Notes under the pieces: generated by a model
What the model was told of the DNA's origin: nothing
What the model saw: the letters and a program-made list of their open reading frames with translations, nothing else
Database searches by the model: none
Source: Halorubrum yunnanense
Lineage (GTDB): Archaea; Halobacteriota; Halobacteria; Halobacteriales; Haloferacaceae
Assembly: GCF_026586675.1 (NCBI RefSeq)
Contig: NZ_JAODIX010000027.1
Location: forward strand, 1-64,000
Direction: 5' to 3'
Length of the DNA stretch: 64,000 nt
Made by a program: the position numbers and the translations under genes
Shown: piece by piece, positions 6,092-13,163 of the stretch
How the letters are laid out: each line of letters starts with the position of its first letter
Numbering within the stretch: the first letter of the stretch is position 1

Positions 6092-9000
6092 TCACGCCAG
6101 CCAGTCGTCGGGCTTGGTGTCGTAGTCGACCTCGTCGGCCTCGATCCGCTCGCGGATCTCCGGGTCGAGGTCGTGTTCGGTCACCTCGCCGCCGTCGTAC
6201 TGGAACCGCACGCCGACCTCCTCGCCCTCCGGCTCCGCCCCGCGACGCTTCGCGCGACGGATCGCCTCGTCGGAGTACTCGACCCGGATCGTCGCGAGGT
6301 TCACGGGGCGGCCCCACAGCTCGAACACGCGTTTGAGCGTCTCCTTCGCCGACGCCTCGTCGATCGCGACTCCGTTGAACCGGTGGCCGAGCAGGAGCTC
6401 GCCGCGGTTCCGGAAGTTGCCGTCGAGCACGACGACCGTCGGCTTCCCGAAGTTCGTGAACTGCAGGAGGAGCTTCCGTCTGACGTCGTCGGCGTCGACG
6501 CTGGCGACCCGGTGCTCCTCGGCCGTCCGGCTGTACTCGTAGGTGAAGTAGTTCCCCTCGCGGACGAACTCGTCGGTGAGGAACGCGTCGATGAACGTGA
6601 CGTCGTTGTGGCTCTCGCGCACCTCTCGCATCCGGTCCCAGCCGGCCGTCCGGTCGACGTCGGCGAGCGCCTCGTCGACGCTCCCGTACCGGTCGACGTC
6701 GAACATGTACCGGGCGCGCTCCGCCAGCGTCTCCCGCGAGACGTTGCGCAGCGCCCCGCGGTGTTCCGGCCGCGAGAGGACGTAGTGGCGCTCCGCGAGC
6801 CCCTCGCGGGTGAGGAGCTTCCAGGGGTAGCGTTCGATGTCGGGGCCGTCGTCGGGGCCGGCCTCGTCGTCGGTCCGCGCCGACAGCGCCCGGTCGACGG
6901 CTTCGGCGTCGACCCGCGGGTCGCCGTCGGCGGCGAGGTCGGCCAGCTCGTCGAGCGTCGCCGGGCCCGCCCCGGCGATCGCGGGGTGGGGCTCCAGCGC
7001 TTCGGCGACCTCGTCGAGGTCGATCCGCGAGTGGAAGTTGTCGGCGGTCACTCCCTCCACGCGCAGCAGCCGGTCGATCACGTCGCGGCGGGCGGCCCGC
7101 AGCTCCACGTGGGTCCACAGCTCGAAGCCGAGCTTATACGGGTTGAGCCCGGGCGAGCCGAGCACCCGCGCCATGTGGTCGGCGTACGTGAGGAACTCGT
7201 CGGGGCCGGCGAACCCCTCGCCGCCCATCATGGTAGACTCCCAGTACGAGTTGTGGTTGATGAATCCCGCACCCGCGTATCGGTGAGTTTCCTCCACGGA
7301 GATGTCGTACACGTCTCCGGTTCCCTCTTCGACGCTTACGACCTCGTCAGTCCATTCCTCGGCTTCGAACCACGCGAGCTCGTCGAGATACTTCTCGAGT
7401 GCTTCGTCCTTGGAGGAGTAGCCGAACCCGATCTCCGTATGGAACCGATCAACGGACTTGCCGGTCAGATGAACGTGGAAACAGCCGTCGGACTGCTTTC
7501 GACGGCGTGAGAGGATCCCGAAGTTCGTCAACAGTAGCTGGACGACCTTCGAGACAGACTCGCTCTTGCTGCTGAGGATTGCCCCTCGGTCCCCGGCGTA
7601 TCCGTCAGCATCGAACAACCCTCTAAGGAATTCGCTCACGACCGGTTTCGGCGATCGAAGGATTGGCTTCGGGACGACTTTGTCGGCGGCACCCGTTCGC
7701 AGATCGAACCACTCCGTGAGCAGCCGAACCAGATTCGCGGAGTAGATGTACGTCCGCCATCGCGACCCGTCTTCGGAGACGGTCGGAGAGACGCCGAACA
7801 GTTCGTCAGCCAATCCGGCGAACTCCTCCGCTTTGGCCTTCGAGCCGGACGTAAACCCGACCTGCTCGGACGCTTCCGAGACGTGTCCGTCTCCGACCAG
7901 TAACCCGAGGAACCGTCCGAGTTTCTCGGACACCTGATCGGGAACGGCGATGATGTCGCTCTTCGCGACGCTCTGATTCTCCCCATCGTACGACGTCAGT
8001 GCTCTCTCGATGGTCTCGGATTTTTCCGCACGGCCCGTCTTACGATAGCGCATAACGGTCCAGATCGAGACGCCCGCCTCGTCGGCCACGTCGTTGAGCG
8101 TGGTGTGTTCCGGATGCTGCCAATCGATACCGACGTAACTCGTCGGCCAGAGACCGTCACCTCCTGATATCTCGATCTCGTCGCCTTTCGAGATATCTCG
8201 TAGCTCGACCCAGGAACCGTCTGGTTTCCGGATCCGGTGGTTGTCGGAGCCGCGTAGTTCGAAGCCCCGTCGGGTCTCGATCGAAACGGTGTCATGATCC
8301 GAAATGACGTTTGAATCGTAGGCGGCTCGCACCCCGTCACCGTCCGATACGGCGGGGAGATCATCGACGACCTCGCGCATCGGCAGGAGTCCCCCTTCGG
8401 TGAAGACGGGGGTTTCGGGCGCGACACAGGCCCACCCCTCGTTCATCACCTTCGTCTGCTTCTGGCCCGCGAAGTAGTACGCCTCCTCCCGGATCGCGTC
8501 GACGACGGTCGTCTCCCACGGCTCGCGGTCGACCGCCTTCCCGCTCTCGGAGTCGTACCGCTTCCCGTGGTCGCGCAGGAACGCGAGCACGTCCGGGCGC
8601 GGCTCCTCCGGCTCGACCCCCTCGCCCCGCGCTTCGAGCCACTCGTCGTCGAACACGTCCCGGCGCACCTCCTCGGAGAGGTCGAGGTCGGCGACCCGCT
8701 CTTCGATCGCCGCCAGCGGGTCCTCGTCGGCGTCGTTCACGTCCTCGGCGACGCCGGGCTCTTCGACCGACCGAGCGGCGTCGACCGGGCTGTGCTGGTC
8801 GATCGTGTCCTCTAACGCCGTCACGGCGTCGATCAGGCGCTCGACCTCGTCGCGGTCGACGTCTGCCCGGTCGGCGATCGCCGCGATTCTGTCGGCGTTG
8901 CGCTCCAGCCGCGCCGCGGCGTTCGGCCCGCCCTCGCCGCGGTCGGCGTACAGCCCGAACCAGCCGTTGTTCGCGAAGAAGTCGGCGTGCGCCTCAACGT

Positions 9001-9331
9001 GGGTGATCACGGCCTTCTGGTCGGCCGCCGAGTTGGACTCCTGGAGGAACGCGTGGCTCGGGTCGTCGTTGTTGACGATCTCGAACGCCTTCCCCAGCCC
9101 GTGGCGGTCCTTCTTGTACTGTCGCTCGTAGTTCATCCCCCACCGCCAGTGCGGGTAGCGACGCTGGAAGCCGCCGTACGCGATCAGCTCGTTCATCTCG
9201 TCGTGGTCGACAACCCAGTACCGGACCGGGTACGGCTCCAGCCCGAGCCGCTCGGCGAGCTCGCGGGCCGCCGCGGCGGGCTCGTCGAGGGACTCCGCCT
9301 CGCGCTTCGCCTCGACGCGCTCGTCTCTCAT
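6092..9331 (-). CDS. SpoVR family protein, interrupted by an intein
   Basis: The 1079-codon frame encodes a SpoVR-family protein (E. coli YcgB, Bacillus SpoVR) split by a 393-residue intein at residues 302-694. After splicing the host would be 686 aa. The N-extein has the family block [13 protein letters not shown] and the His-rich [20 protein letters not shown] region. The intein sits between Ala301 and Ser695, inside the conserved NEGWA/SYWEST motif. The C-extein carries HLR-type blocks and a C-terminal [11 protein letters not shown]. SpoVR function is poorly defined, but it is co-conserved with PrkA and YeaH in starvation and stress responses. The start overlaps the yeaH-like stop by 4 nt, so it is the last gene of a four-gene operon. 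Confidence 0.95.
7250..8428 (-). mobile_element. Intein in SpoVR with LAGLIDADG endonuclease and LacI-like HTH
   Basis: This is a 393-residue in-frame insertion. Block A starts with Cys1 (CVAPETPVF). Block B is GSDNHRI, with its His at 64. LAGLIDADG-type motifs occur at about 171-182 ([10 protein letters not shown]) and 268-277 ([10 protein letters not shown]). Block F is [12 protein letters not shown], and the end is His392-Asn393 followed by extein Ser. All residues needed for class 1 protein splicing are present. Residues 109-146 resemble a LacI N-terminal helix-turn-helix ([18 protein letters not shown]). The target is a highly conserved extein motif, as expected for a homing element. Homing activity is inferred. 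Confidence 0.95.
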
Positions 9332-10707
9332 CGCCGCTCACCTCCTCCGTCGGCCGCCGCCCCGCCGGCGGTCGCGTCGCCGTCGCCCTCGGCCTCGGTA
9401 CTGAGGATCTCGTAGATGGCGTCGGTGACGTCGGCGGGCTCCGACACGCGAGCGACGGCGACGTCGTCGGCGTCGCCGAGCGCGTTCTCGACCTCGTCGG
9501 CGTGGCGCGCGTTCGGCGCGGCGCCGCCGGGCTGCGTCTCCACGTACGCGTGGAGGTTGGCATCGATCGACTCCATCAGCGGGATCACCGAGTCGGTCGT
9601 ATCGCTGCCGGAGTTCTCGGAGTCGCCGGCGGCGAAGACGTAGCGGTTCCACTCATTGTACGGGTACTCCTCTACGATCTCTTCGACCAGTTCGTAGGCG
9701 CTGGAGATCCGGGTGCCGCCGCCCGACTGGATCCCGAAGAACTCCTCGCGGTCGACCTCCCACGCCTCCGCGTCGTGGACGACGTACCGGAACTCAGCGG
9801 CGTCGTACTTCCCCGTCAGGTACCAGTCCATCGGCGTGAACACGCGCTCGACCAGTTCGCGTTTCGTCTCGCGCATCGAGCCGGAGGCGTCGCGCACGTT
9901 GACGACGACGACGTTGCGCTCGCGCTTCTCGATCACCTCCGGGTGGCGGAACCGCTCGTCCTCCCGGCGGAAGGGGACGCTGTCTATCCCCTCCCGGCGG
10001 ATCCGGTGGCTCACCGGCTCACGCTCGACCTCGTCGTCGAGCGCGTCGAAGCTCTCCCAGCGGTCGAGCGCCATCACGGGCTCGCCGCGCTCCTCGGCGA
10101 GCGTCGCCGCGGCGTCGGCGACCCACGCCCGCGAGACGGGTACGCCCTTCCCGCGCGCCCACGCGAACGCCTCGTCTACGTCCGCGCCGGCGACGAACAG
10201 TCCCTCCCGGACGTACTCCCCGTCGAAGTCGGTCGCGAGGTGGCGCTTCAGCCCGCGCTTGAAGAACTCGTCGACGTCGAGGGTGCCGCGCGGACCGGCC
10301 CGCGCGGTGTCGGTGAAGTCGCCCTCCACCTCCTCGACCACCCGCTTCCCCTTCGGCTCGAGGTCGAGCCCGAGCGCCTCGTCGAGCTCTCTCGCGAACT
10401 CCTCAGGGTCCATCTCGTAGTACTCGTGCTCGCCCCCCTCCTCGCCGGGGTCGCCGTCCTCGTCGCCGTCGCCCGGCTCGGGGTCGACCGGCTGACCGGG
10501 TTGCGGCTGGCCGCCCTGCCCCTGCCCGACCCCGCCGGCTTCCCGCTTGTCGTACTCGAACTCGGGGAGGTCGACGATCTTCACCGGAATCTTGACCCGG
10601 TCCGGGCCGGACCCGCCGAGGTCGCCGTGGCTGATGAACTCCGAGAGGTCCCCGCGGCGCTCCTCGCCGACCTCGCGGAAGCGCTCGCGGTCGTCGGTCA
10701 GTCCCAC
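9328..10707 (-). CDS. YeaH/YhbH family protein (DUF444, VWA-like)
   Basis: This 459-aa protein has the DUF444 layout: a Pro/Gly/Asp-rich low-complexity stretch (about 56-95) and then a von Willebrand A-like domain. The metal-site motif is NVRDASGSM (Asp273-x-Ser-x-Ser277), with an [12 protein letters not shown] block and an AAGDSEN block further on. In bacteria YeaH acts with the kinase YeaG/PrkA and with SpoVR/YcgB in sustained nitrogen starvation and stress. Here it overlaps PrkA2 by 10 nt upstream and SpoVR by 4 nt downstream, a strong sign of a single transcript. A partner-scaffold role is inferred. Confidence 0.93.
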
Positions 10708-13163
10708 GAGACGTCACCCCCGTTCTCGCCGCTGCGGTCCCGCCCGCCTCGCCGGGCCCCCTCGTCCTCGTCGGCGGCGAGGTCGGCCCACTCGTCGCGG
10801 GCGTCGCGCATCACGGCGCGGCTGGTCAGCTCGGCCGACGCGGGGCTGTAGCCCCGGTCGACGAGCCGCTCGATCGTCGCCGTCTTCACCCGCGCCGTCT
10901 CGGTGTCGGCCGGCGGATCGGCCCACTCGGCCGGGTCGAGATCGGGGAAGCGACGCTTCACGTCGGCCAGATCGTTCGCGTCGAGTACCTCCCGGAGCTC
11001 GGGGATCTCGCCGAGGTCGACGTCGTCGACGCTGAACTCATCGCCGCGGTTTCGCCACGCGTACCGGGTGAGCGCCCGGATCACGCGCTCCCGGCGGAAC
11101 TCGGCCACCCCTCTCGTCGGGTCGGTCCCGTAGTAGTCGTCCTCGTCGAACCGGCCCAGCGTCTCCGTCTCGAACACCTTCATCACGAGGGCGTCGGGCT
11201 CCTCGGGCCCGCGCTCCGTCTCCACCGGCTCGTCAGCGTCCCAGGCGTAGACGTGTTCGACGTACTCGGCCACCGTCTCCTCCGCGACGGTCGCCTCCGC
11301 GAGGGCGGCGTCGATCACGTCGGCGCGCTGTCGCTCGCGGACGCGCGCCGCCACCGGCGCCCTCCGGCTCTCGAACTCCGCGACTTCCGACCGGGAAAAC
11401 AGCGGCGCCGCCGAGAGCCCCTCGGCCATCGCGTCGAGCACGTCCGTCGGCGTGACGACGCGCTCGACCGGCAACTCGGAATGGCTCCGGTCGCCGTCCG
11501 ACCCCAGCAGGTCGGCGACGACGTCGCGGGTGTACGTCACCGGGATCCCGTTTCGCCCGTCGCCGTCGCCGAAGTCGACGTCGTCGATCGCGATCCGCTC
11601 GTCGTCGCCGTCATCCCGCTCGCGTCTGAGCTCTCCGGTCTCGTACAGCTCCGCCTTTTCGACGAGGCCGAGATCGGCCGGCAGATCCTCCGCGTCGAGC
11701 CGACTGACGACCGCGTACAGCGCCGCCGCCCCGACCGCGTGGGGGGAGAGCTCCCGCTGGGTGACCGTCCCGTCGTCGCCGCGGACGTCGATCGTCAGGC
11801 CCGCGGCGCCGGGCTGGTCGGCCGGGTCGCGCTCGGGATCGGCGTCCGGGTCGTCCCCGGGGCCCTCGCCGCGCTCGTTTGCCTCCCCCTCAGTCTCCGC
11901 CTCGTCGACGCCGTCGACGGTCGGCACGCCGCGGACCCCGCCGACCTCGCGGCGGAGCAGCTCCGACTCCAGCCGCCGGTTCGTCAGGTAGCGGAACTCG
12001 TGGCGGGTGAGCCGTCGCTTCAACGCCTTCAGGGGGTCGGCGCCCTCGCGCTCGGCGTGGCGGTCGAGCTCTGCGTCGAGGTCGGGGTTCGAGATAACGA
12101 TCAGCTGCGTGTCCAGGTCCATCCCGATCCCCTTGTCGAGCTTCACGCGGCGCTCATCGGGGACGTTGAGCAGGCGCCGGAGCAGGTCGGCGTGCTGGCT
12201 CGCGTCCTCGACGACGGTGGCGACGCCGTTGCCCTGCGAGAGCACGCCGTCGTAGCTGAACGCCTGCGGGTTCTTGCGCCCGCGCGAGTCGAGCTCGCGG
12301 AGCATCCCGCCCATCCACGAGCCGACGAGCCGCTCTTTCGGGGTGCCGTCGTCCTCCGCGTGGAGCACGCCGACCCCCTTCCCGACGTCGACGACGTAGC
12401 TCGTCACGCGGAGGTGGTCGCGGTCGGTGATCGCCGAGAACAGGTCCCGACGCCCCTCGTCGCGGTACGCCGACTCCAAGTGGTCGTACGCCTCACGGCT
12501 GAACGGGTCGAGGTCGACGTCGGCCGCGATCGGGTAGGCGTCGTCCTCGACGCTCTCGGCGATCGACTCTCGGACGTCCTCGGGGAACACCGAGAGCGGA
12601 TGCGCCTGCACCGGGCTCCGGTACCACGCGCCGGCGTCGCCGCCGTCGCCGTACGAGAGCGACGCGGCGCCCGCGCCGTCGACCCCGCTCCCCGCGCCCG
12701 TGACGTTCCACTCGACAGTGTAGCGACGCCCGGCCTCGGTCTTCGAGAACTCCCGGAGCCCGTTCACCAGGCACCGCTTGAACTCCGACTTCCCGGTCGC
12801 CGTGGGGCCGTCGATCCAGACGATGGTCTCGTCGTTGCCGCGGCCCGACGCGGCGGCCCGGAGATCGTCGACGAACGCGTTGAGCGCGGCGGTGTTGCCG
12901 AGGACGGCGTGTTCGCCGTCGTTGAACGGGTCGTCGAAGAAGCGGTACCGCTCTAGGCGCTCGCCGCGCTCGCGGACCTCGCGGGTCCCTTCCGACTCGA
13001 TCGCCGCGAGGACGTACCGAGCCCCGGAGGCGGCGGCGACCGGGTTCTCCAACACGCGGTCGACGTACTCGTCGAGGCTCATCGGCGGGTCGTACGCGCC
13101 GCGCAGGGTCTCGTCGGCCGCTCGCACGAAGCGTTCGCCGTCGGATCGGTCGCGATCGTTCAT
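10698..13163 (-). CDS. PrkA-type serine protein kinase, second paralog
   Basis: This 821-aa protein is related to PrkA but more divergent and longer than the first paralog. A P-loop-like GPTATGKS lies at 119-126, followed by an AAA-like core with NPDLDAEL and a C-terminal region of acidic helices. A long acidic insert rich in Asp, Glu, Gly and Pro lies at about 405-445. PrkA proteins combine an AAA-like fold with a distant kinase-like C-terminus. Haloarchaea commonly carry two such genes side by side. It starts one base after the upstream kinase stop. Kinase activity and substrates are not shown by sequence. The two paralogs may act as a hetero-oligomer. Confidence 0.9.

Follow-up and report, generated by a model that had tools for sequence, protein, structure and literature searches.

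A probable homing intein in haloarchaeal SpoVR and the serine codon that tracks with it

Introduction

A survey of 118 halobacterial genomes described inteins in 13 host genes as 24 alleles (Soucy et al. 2014; PMC4071816), and few of the hosts tabulated there, UDP-glucose dehydrogenase being one, lie outside DNA and nucleotide metabolism. SpoVR is absent from these 13 genes and 24 alleles and the word does not occur in the main text of the survey; the listed alleles represent the same kind of element, in the same group of hosts, as the SpoVR intein described here. For the MCM-d intein of Haloferacales it has been reported that invaded sites always carry Ser directly behind the intein (position +1) and empty sites mostly Pro, that the intein combined with the Pro allele is not viable, that Pro must in the authors' view be co-converted, and that the invasion rate is near-negligible (PMC10643990). 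Because of this precedent the idea of +1 co-conversion is not new. As described there, MCM-d shares with the SpoVR intein that it is a haloarchaeal mobile intein with a homing endonuclease and that filled sites hold +1 Ser and empty sites mostly a non-splicing residue. The SpoVR intein differs in its host, in the residue of its empty sites (Ala, Thr or AGY-encoded Ser) and in having copies in nine families.

The nearest sequence relatives that we found are inteins of haloarchaeal rir1 (B12-dependent ribonucleotide reductase), which a profile of the SpoVR intein matches nearly end to end (L025 with 115 bits, L019 with 111 bits), but their host and site are different and identity is about 28-34%. 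By eye, several of them also carry helix-turn-helix (HTH)-like repeats between Hint-N and the endonuclease, whereas the HTH segment of the SpoVR intein has no significant match to them. The TliVMA and PhoVMA inteins (PDB 7qss, 7qsu, 7qst) share the Hint plus LAGLIDADG architecture but are V-ATPase inteins, and I-DmoI shares the endonuclease fold but is an intron endonuclease; identity in structural alignments with the VMA inteins and I-DmoI is about 15-21%.

Results and discussion

The SpoVR intein was found in a window of 64,000 nucleotides from Halorubrum yunnanense (contig NZ_JAODIX010000027.1, positions 1 to 64,000). Here, spoVR is located downstream of genes for a DUF444 protein and a PrkA-type protein:

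6092..9331, minus strand: SpoVR precursor ORF, 1079 aa, 686 aa after predicted splicing (ORF and Pfam)
8429..9331, minus strand: N-extein, SpoVR residues 1-301, ending ...KVMNEGWA (sequence)
6092..7249, minus strand: C-extein, precursor residues 695-1079, starting SYWEST, with stop (sequence)
9328..10707, minus strand: DUF444 protein, partner gene overlapping the SpoVR start (PF04285, 325 bits)
10698..13163, minus strand: PrkA-type AAA+ protein, partner gene (PF06798, 96 bits; PF08298, 30 bits)

The host, a stress-related protein, belongs to the SpoVR family as indicated by Pfam (PF04293 with 229 bits over the precursor, plus SpoVR_C) and by its PrkA and DUF444 neighbors. We take the DUF444 gene to be of the YeaH/UPF0229 type and the whole set to correspond to PrkA/YeaG-YeaH-SpoVR/YcgB of bacteria. 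A sequence search of the PDB returned no solved relative of SpoVR, and an AlphaFold model of the precursor had a pLDDT of 34.6, too low to be usable.

The initial annotation had placed a 393-residue insertion between Ala301 and Ser695, and this assignment is correct to the base. The insert comprises 393 in-frame codons, C302 to N694 of the precursor, encoded exactly by positions 7250-8428 of the minus strand, and translation of the joined flanks gives a 686-aa SpoVR. The proposed NEGWA/SYWEST site likewise agrees with the extein ends, as the N-extein closes with NEGWA and the C-extein opens with SYWEST. All residues on which the identification as an intein had been based are present in the sequence, namely Cys1, block B His64, two LAGLIDADG motifs, His392-Asn393 and the +1 Ser:

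7250..8428, minus strand: intein, 393 aa, C1 ... H392-N393 (sequence, Pfam, NCBIfam, alignment)
8144..8428, minus strand: Hint-N region, intein residues 1-95, with Cys1 and block B GSDNH including His64; boundary approximate
7979..8116, minus strand: HTH-like segment, intein residues ~105-150, with a LacI-type HTH at 110-128; boundary approximate
7379..7966, minus strand: LAGLIDADG homing endonuclease domain, intein residues ~155-350 (LAGLIDADG_3 in two stretches; model)
7883..7918, minus strand: first LAGLIDADG motif, intein residues 171-182
7601..7633, minus strand: second LAGLIDADG motif, intein residues 266-276
7250..7366, minus strand: C-terminal splicing region, intein residues ~355-393 (TIGR01443 above cut-off; invariant residues)
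7247..7249, minus strand: +1 Ser codon TCG of the C-extein, presumed splicing nucleophile, tracking with the intein

Features of a class-1 intein are seen both in the setting (in-frame insertion in a conserved host with homologs lacking the insert) and in the residues (Cys1, block B Ser61 and His64, terminal His-Asn, Ser +1). When the insert was searched alone, LAGLIDADG_3 was matched with 78 bits in two stretches and intein_Cterm (TIGR01443) with 19.3 bits (cut-off 15.6), while intein_Nterm (TIGR01445) stayed below its cut-off of 24.5 with 19.4 bits. Intein_splicing (PF14890) reached 36.3 bits against a cut-off of 35.8 with the insert alone and 33 bits, below the cut-off, with the whole precursor. 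The best NCBIfam matches were models of intein-bearing or intein-prone proteins, the first being B12-dependent ribonucleotide reductase (PRK08332), and PHROGs gave two weak, uninformative matches. A profile built from the first 97 residues of 31 aligned rows matched other haloarchaeal inteins, with independent E-values (iE) down to 3.8e-13 among the matches listed. Using the SpoVR-intein profile, an RFC-type intein (L018) was matched with 100 bits over positions 1-352, and weaker matches were obtained to inteins of MCM, DNA polymerase II large subunit and UDP-glucose dehydrogenase; host names of profile-matched inteins are our reading of the sequences and not annotation. The HTH-like segment scored 23 bits with Pfam LacI, under the cut-off of 27, and many of its residues are invariant in the 31-row alignment. 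Since it had no significant match among 27 other intein pieces (best iE 0.19), the segment may be a separately acquired DNA-binding part.

In the AlphaFold model of the intein, the endonuclease alone is confident, with pLDDT below 50 across almost the whole of residues 1-164 and across 333-393. Residues ~165-330 adopt an alpha-beta-beta-alpha-beta-beta-alpha fold, and Foldseek matches of the endonuclease model include I-DmoI (TM-score ~0.7 by target length) and the TliVMA, PI-PfuI and PI-SceI inteins. Long matches to VMA inteins have an rmsd of 11-12, so that these matches back the endonuclease more than the Hint part.

The intein alignment contained 31 rows, of which L009 and L010 duplicate L014 and L015, leaving 29 distinct copies; L055 makes 30, and L065, L066 and L191 are fragments. 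C1, S61, H64, D375, H382, N391, H392 and N393 are invariant in all 31 rows (29 distinct). Copies lacking Cys1 or Asn393 had been proposed as a check on the intein assignment and were sought, with both residues kept in 31 of 31 rows. The endonuclease residue Asp275 is invariant as well (31/31), and Asp180 is present in 30 of 31 rows with Gly in one copy. Full-length copies measure 393-397 aa, all retain the endonuclease, and those of the order search are 61-93% identical to the intein of the window. Cys316 (window 7481-7483), located in the endonuclease domain, is also invariant in 31 of 31 copies; it and Cys1 are the only two cysteines of the window's intein. The insertion is not a chance event, as a further 29 distinct full-length copies share its codon and SpoVR is uninterrupted in relatives. 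From its sequence it is almost certainly a full-size mobile intein with Cys1 ... His-Asn ends, that is, a homing element.

Named genomes with this intein include Halorubrum sp. GN11_10-6_MGM, Halonotius roseus and Halovenus salina. Full-length copies with at least 72% identity occur in 6 of 170 genomes of the window's family. A draw of 392 genomes of the order yielded 31 matches at E 1e-20, two of which (G062 and G181, 31% identity) are other inserts. The intein was hence found at the same codon in 29 of 392 genomes from nine families, with 27 full-length copies, a fragment in G258 and a copy in G240 that is divided between two contigs. Of the 392 genomes, 347 have the SpoVR junction region, 28 giving two matches, as expected where an intein splits the query, and 319 giving one; one genome with a single match (G413) is a carrier. 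Whether the site is empty in other haloarchaea had been proposed as a check; 318 of 347 junction-region genomes show a single match and no such intein, with uninterrupted rows spanning the site among the matches listed. In a draw of 246 genomes of the phylum, no copy was found outside the order; at E 1e-15, the genomes beyond it gave just four distant matches with 27-37% identity.

Two carriers deviate from the common picture. G258 holds an intein fragment (L066) with the C-extein junction near a contig end and also an uninterrupted-looking spoVR match, and this double state would reflect a second allele, mixed assembly or contamination. L055 of G413 is filled, its C-extein reads SYHES compared with SYWES and its upstream flank SDDDGGPTTKVM compared with the usual QKMTKVM, pointing to either a divergent SpoVR or assembly trouble. 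A viral or plasmid carrier of the element was sought but not found: a search of viral contigs that detects close relatives returned none, and the six phage records and one Streptomyces plasmid obtained are distant matches only, with less than 30% identity. In the genome of the window, at least four further genes contain inserts with LAGLIDADG (G000 C1:148341-148862, C41:178267-178431, C41:213357-213845 and C73:25451-25999; L001, L003-L006, L008). By sequence reading, their hosts are MCM, PolB (two inserts), DNA polymerase II large subunit and UDP-glucose dehydrogenase, all of which are in the halobacterial intein-host table of PMC4071816.

Pairwise comparisons gave omega values of 0.06-0.17 for the endonuclease (10 of 12 pairs computable) and of 0.04-0.25, the same range, for the splicing regions where computable, which indicates purifying selection. 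In two species (G345 and G400), 0 of 1185 intein bases differ and the exteins have a dS of 0.13, with the identity extending 36 nt upstream and 236 nt downstream of the intein. We read this as recent gene conversion, with a recombined patch of other origin being possible. Based on the invariant splicing residues, the low endonuclease omega and the identical inteins in diverged SpoVR genes, the SpoVR intein looks mobile and active. The purifying selection and the recent transfer tract would be indirect signs that the empty allele is cut site-specifically.

To describe the +1 codon, 28 filled rows were counted, leaving out L055 (SYHES), which was looked at singly. Of 120 empty loci, 117 were counted and three (L096, L133, L142) were dropped because no motif was found. 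A pattern scan over the 392 genomes supplied the 20 empty alleles with TCN and the other 97 were picked by score and hand, so that TCN is over-represented among the 117. All 28 filled rows have TCN-encoded Ser at +1, as do four more filled junctions read singly (L055, L066, L191 and the Halovenus copy L011). The 117 sampled empty alleles hold Ala in 59 cases (half of the sample), Thr in 24, AGY-encoded Ser in 14 and TCN-encoded Ser in 20. The empty TCN cases all belong to family f4, where 20 of the 33 empty alleles sampled and all 9 filled ones carry TCN-Ser; outside f4, none of the 84 empty alleles sampled has it and all 19 filled ones do. The pattern scan placed empty TCN sites in four f4 genera alone (20 of 392 genomes, L097-L116), and 89 of the 97 sampled non-TCN empty sites fit the scan pattern but for the +1 codon. 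Sampled empty Ser alleles outside f4 use AGY in 11 of 11 cases; within the exteins, TCN makes up 67.6% of serine codons.

In the window's genus, filled alleles (3) are distinguished from empty ones (23) by 2 of 685 extein codons, +1 and +6, both directly behind the insertion. Of the 2600 trios that can be formed from these 26 genomes, 2 are set apart at +1, and a single one, the filled trio, at two or more of the codons +1 to +6. In genus g34, the two filled alleles have TCC and the six empty ones GCC or GCT. Ten genera gave a result for this comparison (g55 gave none), and in eight of them +1 separates filled from empty alleles; in the other two, g46 and g80, TCN occurs in empty alleles as well. 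Genera with a single filled allele are little informative since differences there are spread over the whole gene. Codon +6 (window 7232-7234) separates the alleles in g1, g46, g33, g63 and g57, though not over all genera, and may mark an endonuclease target or a short copied tract. It encodes Thr or Met in filled and Ile or Val in empty alleles of g1, and Ala, Thr or Val in filled and Ile or Leu in empty alleles of g46. A wide co-conversion tract was also sought across families via codons separating filled from empty alleles, and was rejected; +1 did so in most genera and +6 did not overall.

Alanine is incapable of acting as a splicing nucleophile. Consequently, an intein inserted into an Ala site without its neighbor codon should not splice. 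We consider it probable from these comparisons that the +1 codon is co-converted with the intein and that the element thereby brings its own +1 residue. SpoVR would be translated as a 1079-aa precursor, in which the Hint halves would carry out an N-S acyl shift at Cys1, transesterification to Ser+1, cyclization of Asn393 and a final acyl shift, releasing the 393-aa intein and the 686-aa SpoVR. The LAGLIDADG endonuclease, perhaps aided by the HTH-like part, would cut uninterrupted spoVR at NEGWA^xYWE, and repair of the break from an intein-bearing allele would copy in the intein along with the adjacent +1 codon. A recipient Ala, Thr or AGY-Ser at +1 would in this way become TCN-Ser, which would allow the element to enter sites unable to splice it as they stand. 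We infer splicing, cutting and the co-conversion behind the +1 pattern from sequence alone.

An alternative account without codon co-conversion is that the intein enters rare alleles already mutated to TCN-Ser at +1. Splicing needs the +1 Ser anyway (Ser, Thr or Cys being the residues that serve), GCN and ACN codons are one base away from TCN so that mutation before insertion also yields TCN, TCN is the most used kind of serine codon in the exteins as given above, and the 20 of 33 sampled empty f4 alleles with TCN-Ser show that permissive empty sites exist there. Further, filled alleles are related, so that 28 of 28 with TCN does not amount to 28 independent events. We nevertheless hold prior mutation to be unlikely in view of the contrast outside f4, where TCN is absent from all 84 sampled empty alleles and present in all 19 filled ones, where sampled empty Ser alleles use AGY throughout, and where the scan of 392 genomes detected no empty TCN although nearly all sampled non-TCN empty sites otherwise fit its pattern. 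An ancient, vertically inherited intein that was lost repeatedly with little transfer would explain why the identity of inteins correlates with that of exteins (Spearman 0.73, 378 pairs) and why the median identities are nearly equal (0.663 for inteins and 0.645 for exteins), and this correlation makes some inheritance, or transfer between relatives, likely besides mobility. As the full explanation, vertical descent is improbable, because carriers are scattered among empty relatives, G345 and G400 share one intein sequence although their exteins have diverged, no TCN scar is seen in the empty relatives sampled outside f4, and the base composition of the insert is low in GC3 (GC 0.599, GC3 0.733) compared with the exteins (GC 0.707, GC3 0.961).

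According to the initial annotation, splicing could make SpoVR maturation conditional; on this view the intein would persist as a switch through which salt, redox or stress governs the formation of mature SpoVR. Condition-dependent splicing has been reported for other inteins (e.g. PMC6195587, PMC7360933 and PMC5790916), SpoVR is part of the PrkA-DUF444-SpoVR set, and the second cysteine is invariant in all 31 copies. We assign such a switch little likelihood, since 318 of 347 junction-region genomes show no such intein, conservation is equally strong in the endonuclease and in the splicing domain, which is what a homing element should show, and presence on the SpoVR tree is scattered about like random labels. 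On this tree (145 tips, 28 filled), 25 changes between filled and empty were counted, compared with a mean of 26.1 (range 21-28) for 500 label shuffles; as the empty alleles are a non-random draw, the count shows scatter and not a rate. Finally, a non-splicing insert or dead intein, with SpoVR staying at 1079 aa or being cleaved, would fit the weak splicing-domain scores against curated models, yet is extremely improbable considering that no catalytic splicing residue varies among the 31 copies, that the other full-length copies of the order search are 61-93% identical to the window's intein and that the splicing regions evolve at the low omega given above. Co-conversion of the +1 codon is therefore the reading that we prefer. 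Its furthest extension, which we put forward tentatively and at somewhat less than even odds, is a mobile unit of 394 codons, the intein plus its own +1 Ser codon, that invades unspliceable spoVR alleles and writes TCN-Ser into them, leaving a lasting change in the mature host, with the TCN-Ser empty alleles of f4 as footprints of lost inteins. These alleles may be such footprints or may reflect local sequence preference.

SpoVR is an intein host for which we found no earlier report, and the element itself is of a standard kind. The +1 pattern, the HTH-like segment and the wide spread were not part of the initial annotation. That annotation considered that the host may be new or seldom noted, which agrees with the searchable literature: an open-access full-text search for SpoVR together with intein returned no paper, absence there not being proof of absence, and a search for intein and PrkA returned only unrelated papers among the matches listed. 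Public databases may well annotate some of these ORFs already.

In conclusion, SpoVR adds one host to the list of haloarchaeal intein hosts. In about 1 in 12 junction-region genomes (29 of 347 in this draw) the insert is probably not part of the mature protein, which calls for caution by annotators. ACN and GCN empty alleles of close relatives provide ready material for a homing assay. The SpoVR intein seems to be another natural case, distributed over nine families, of a splicing nucleophile traveling with its element. If +1 co-conversion is true, a recipient site need not already offer Cys, Ser or Thr, and the rule that it must would be too strict.
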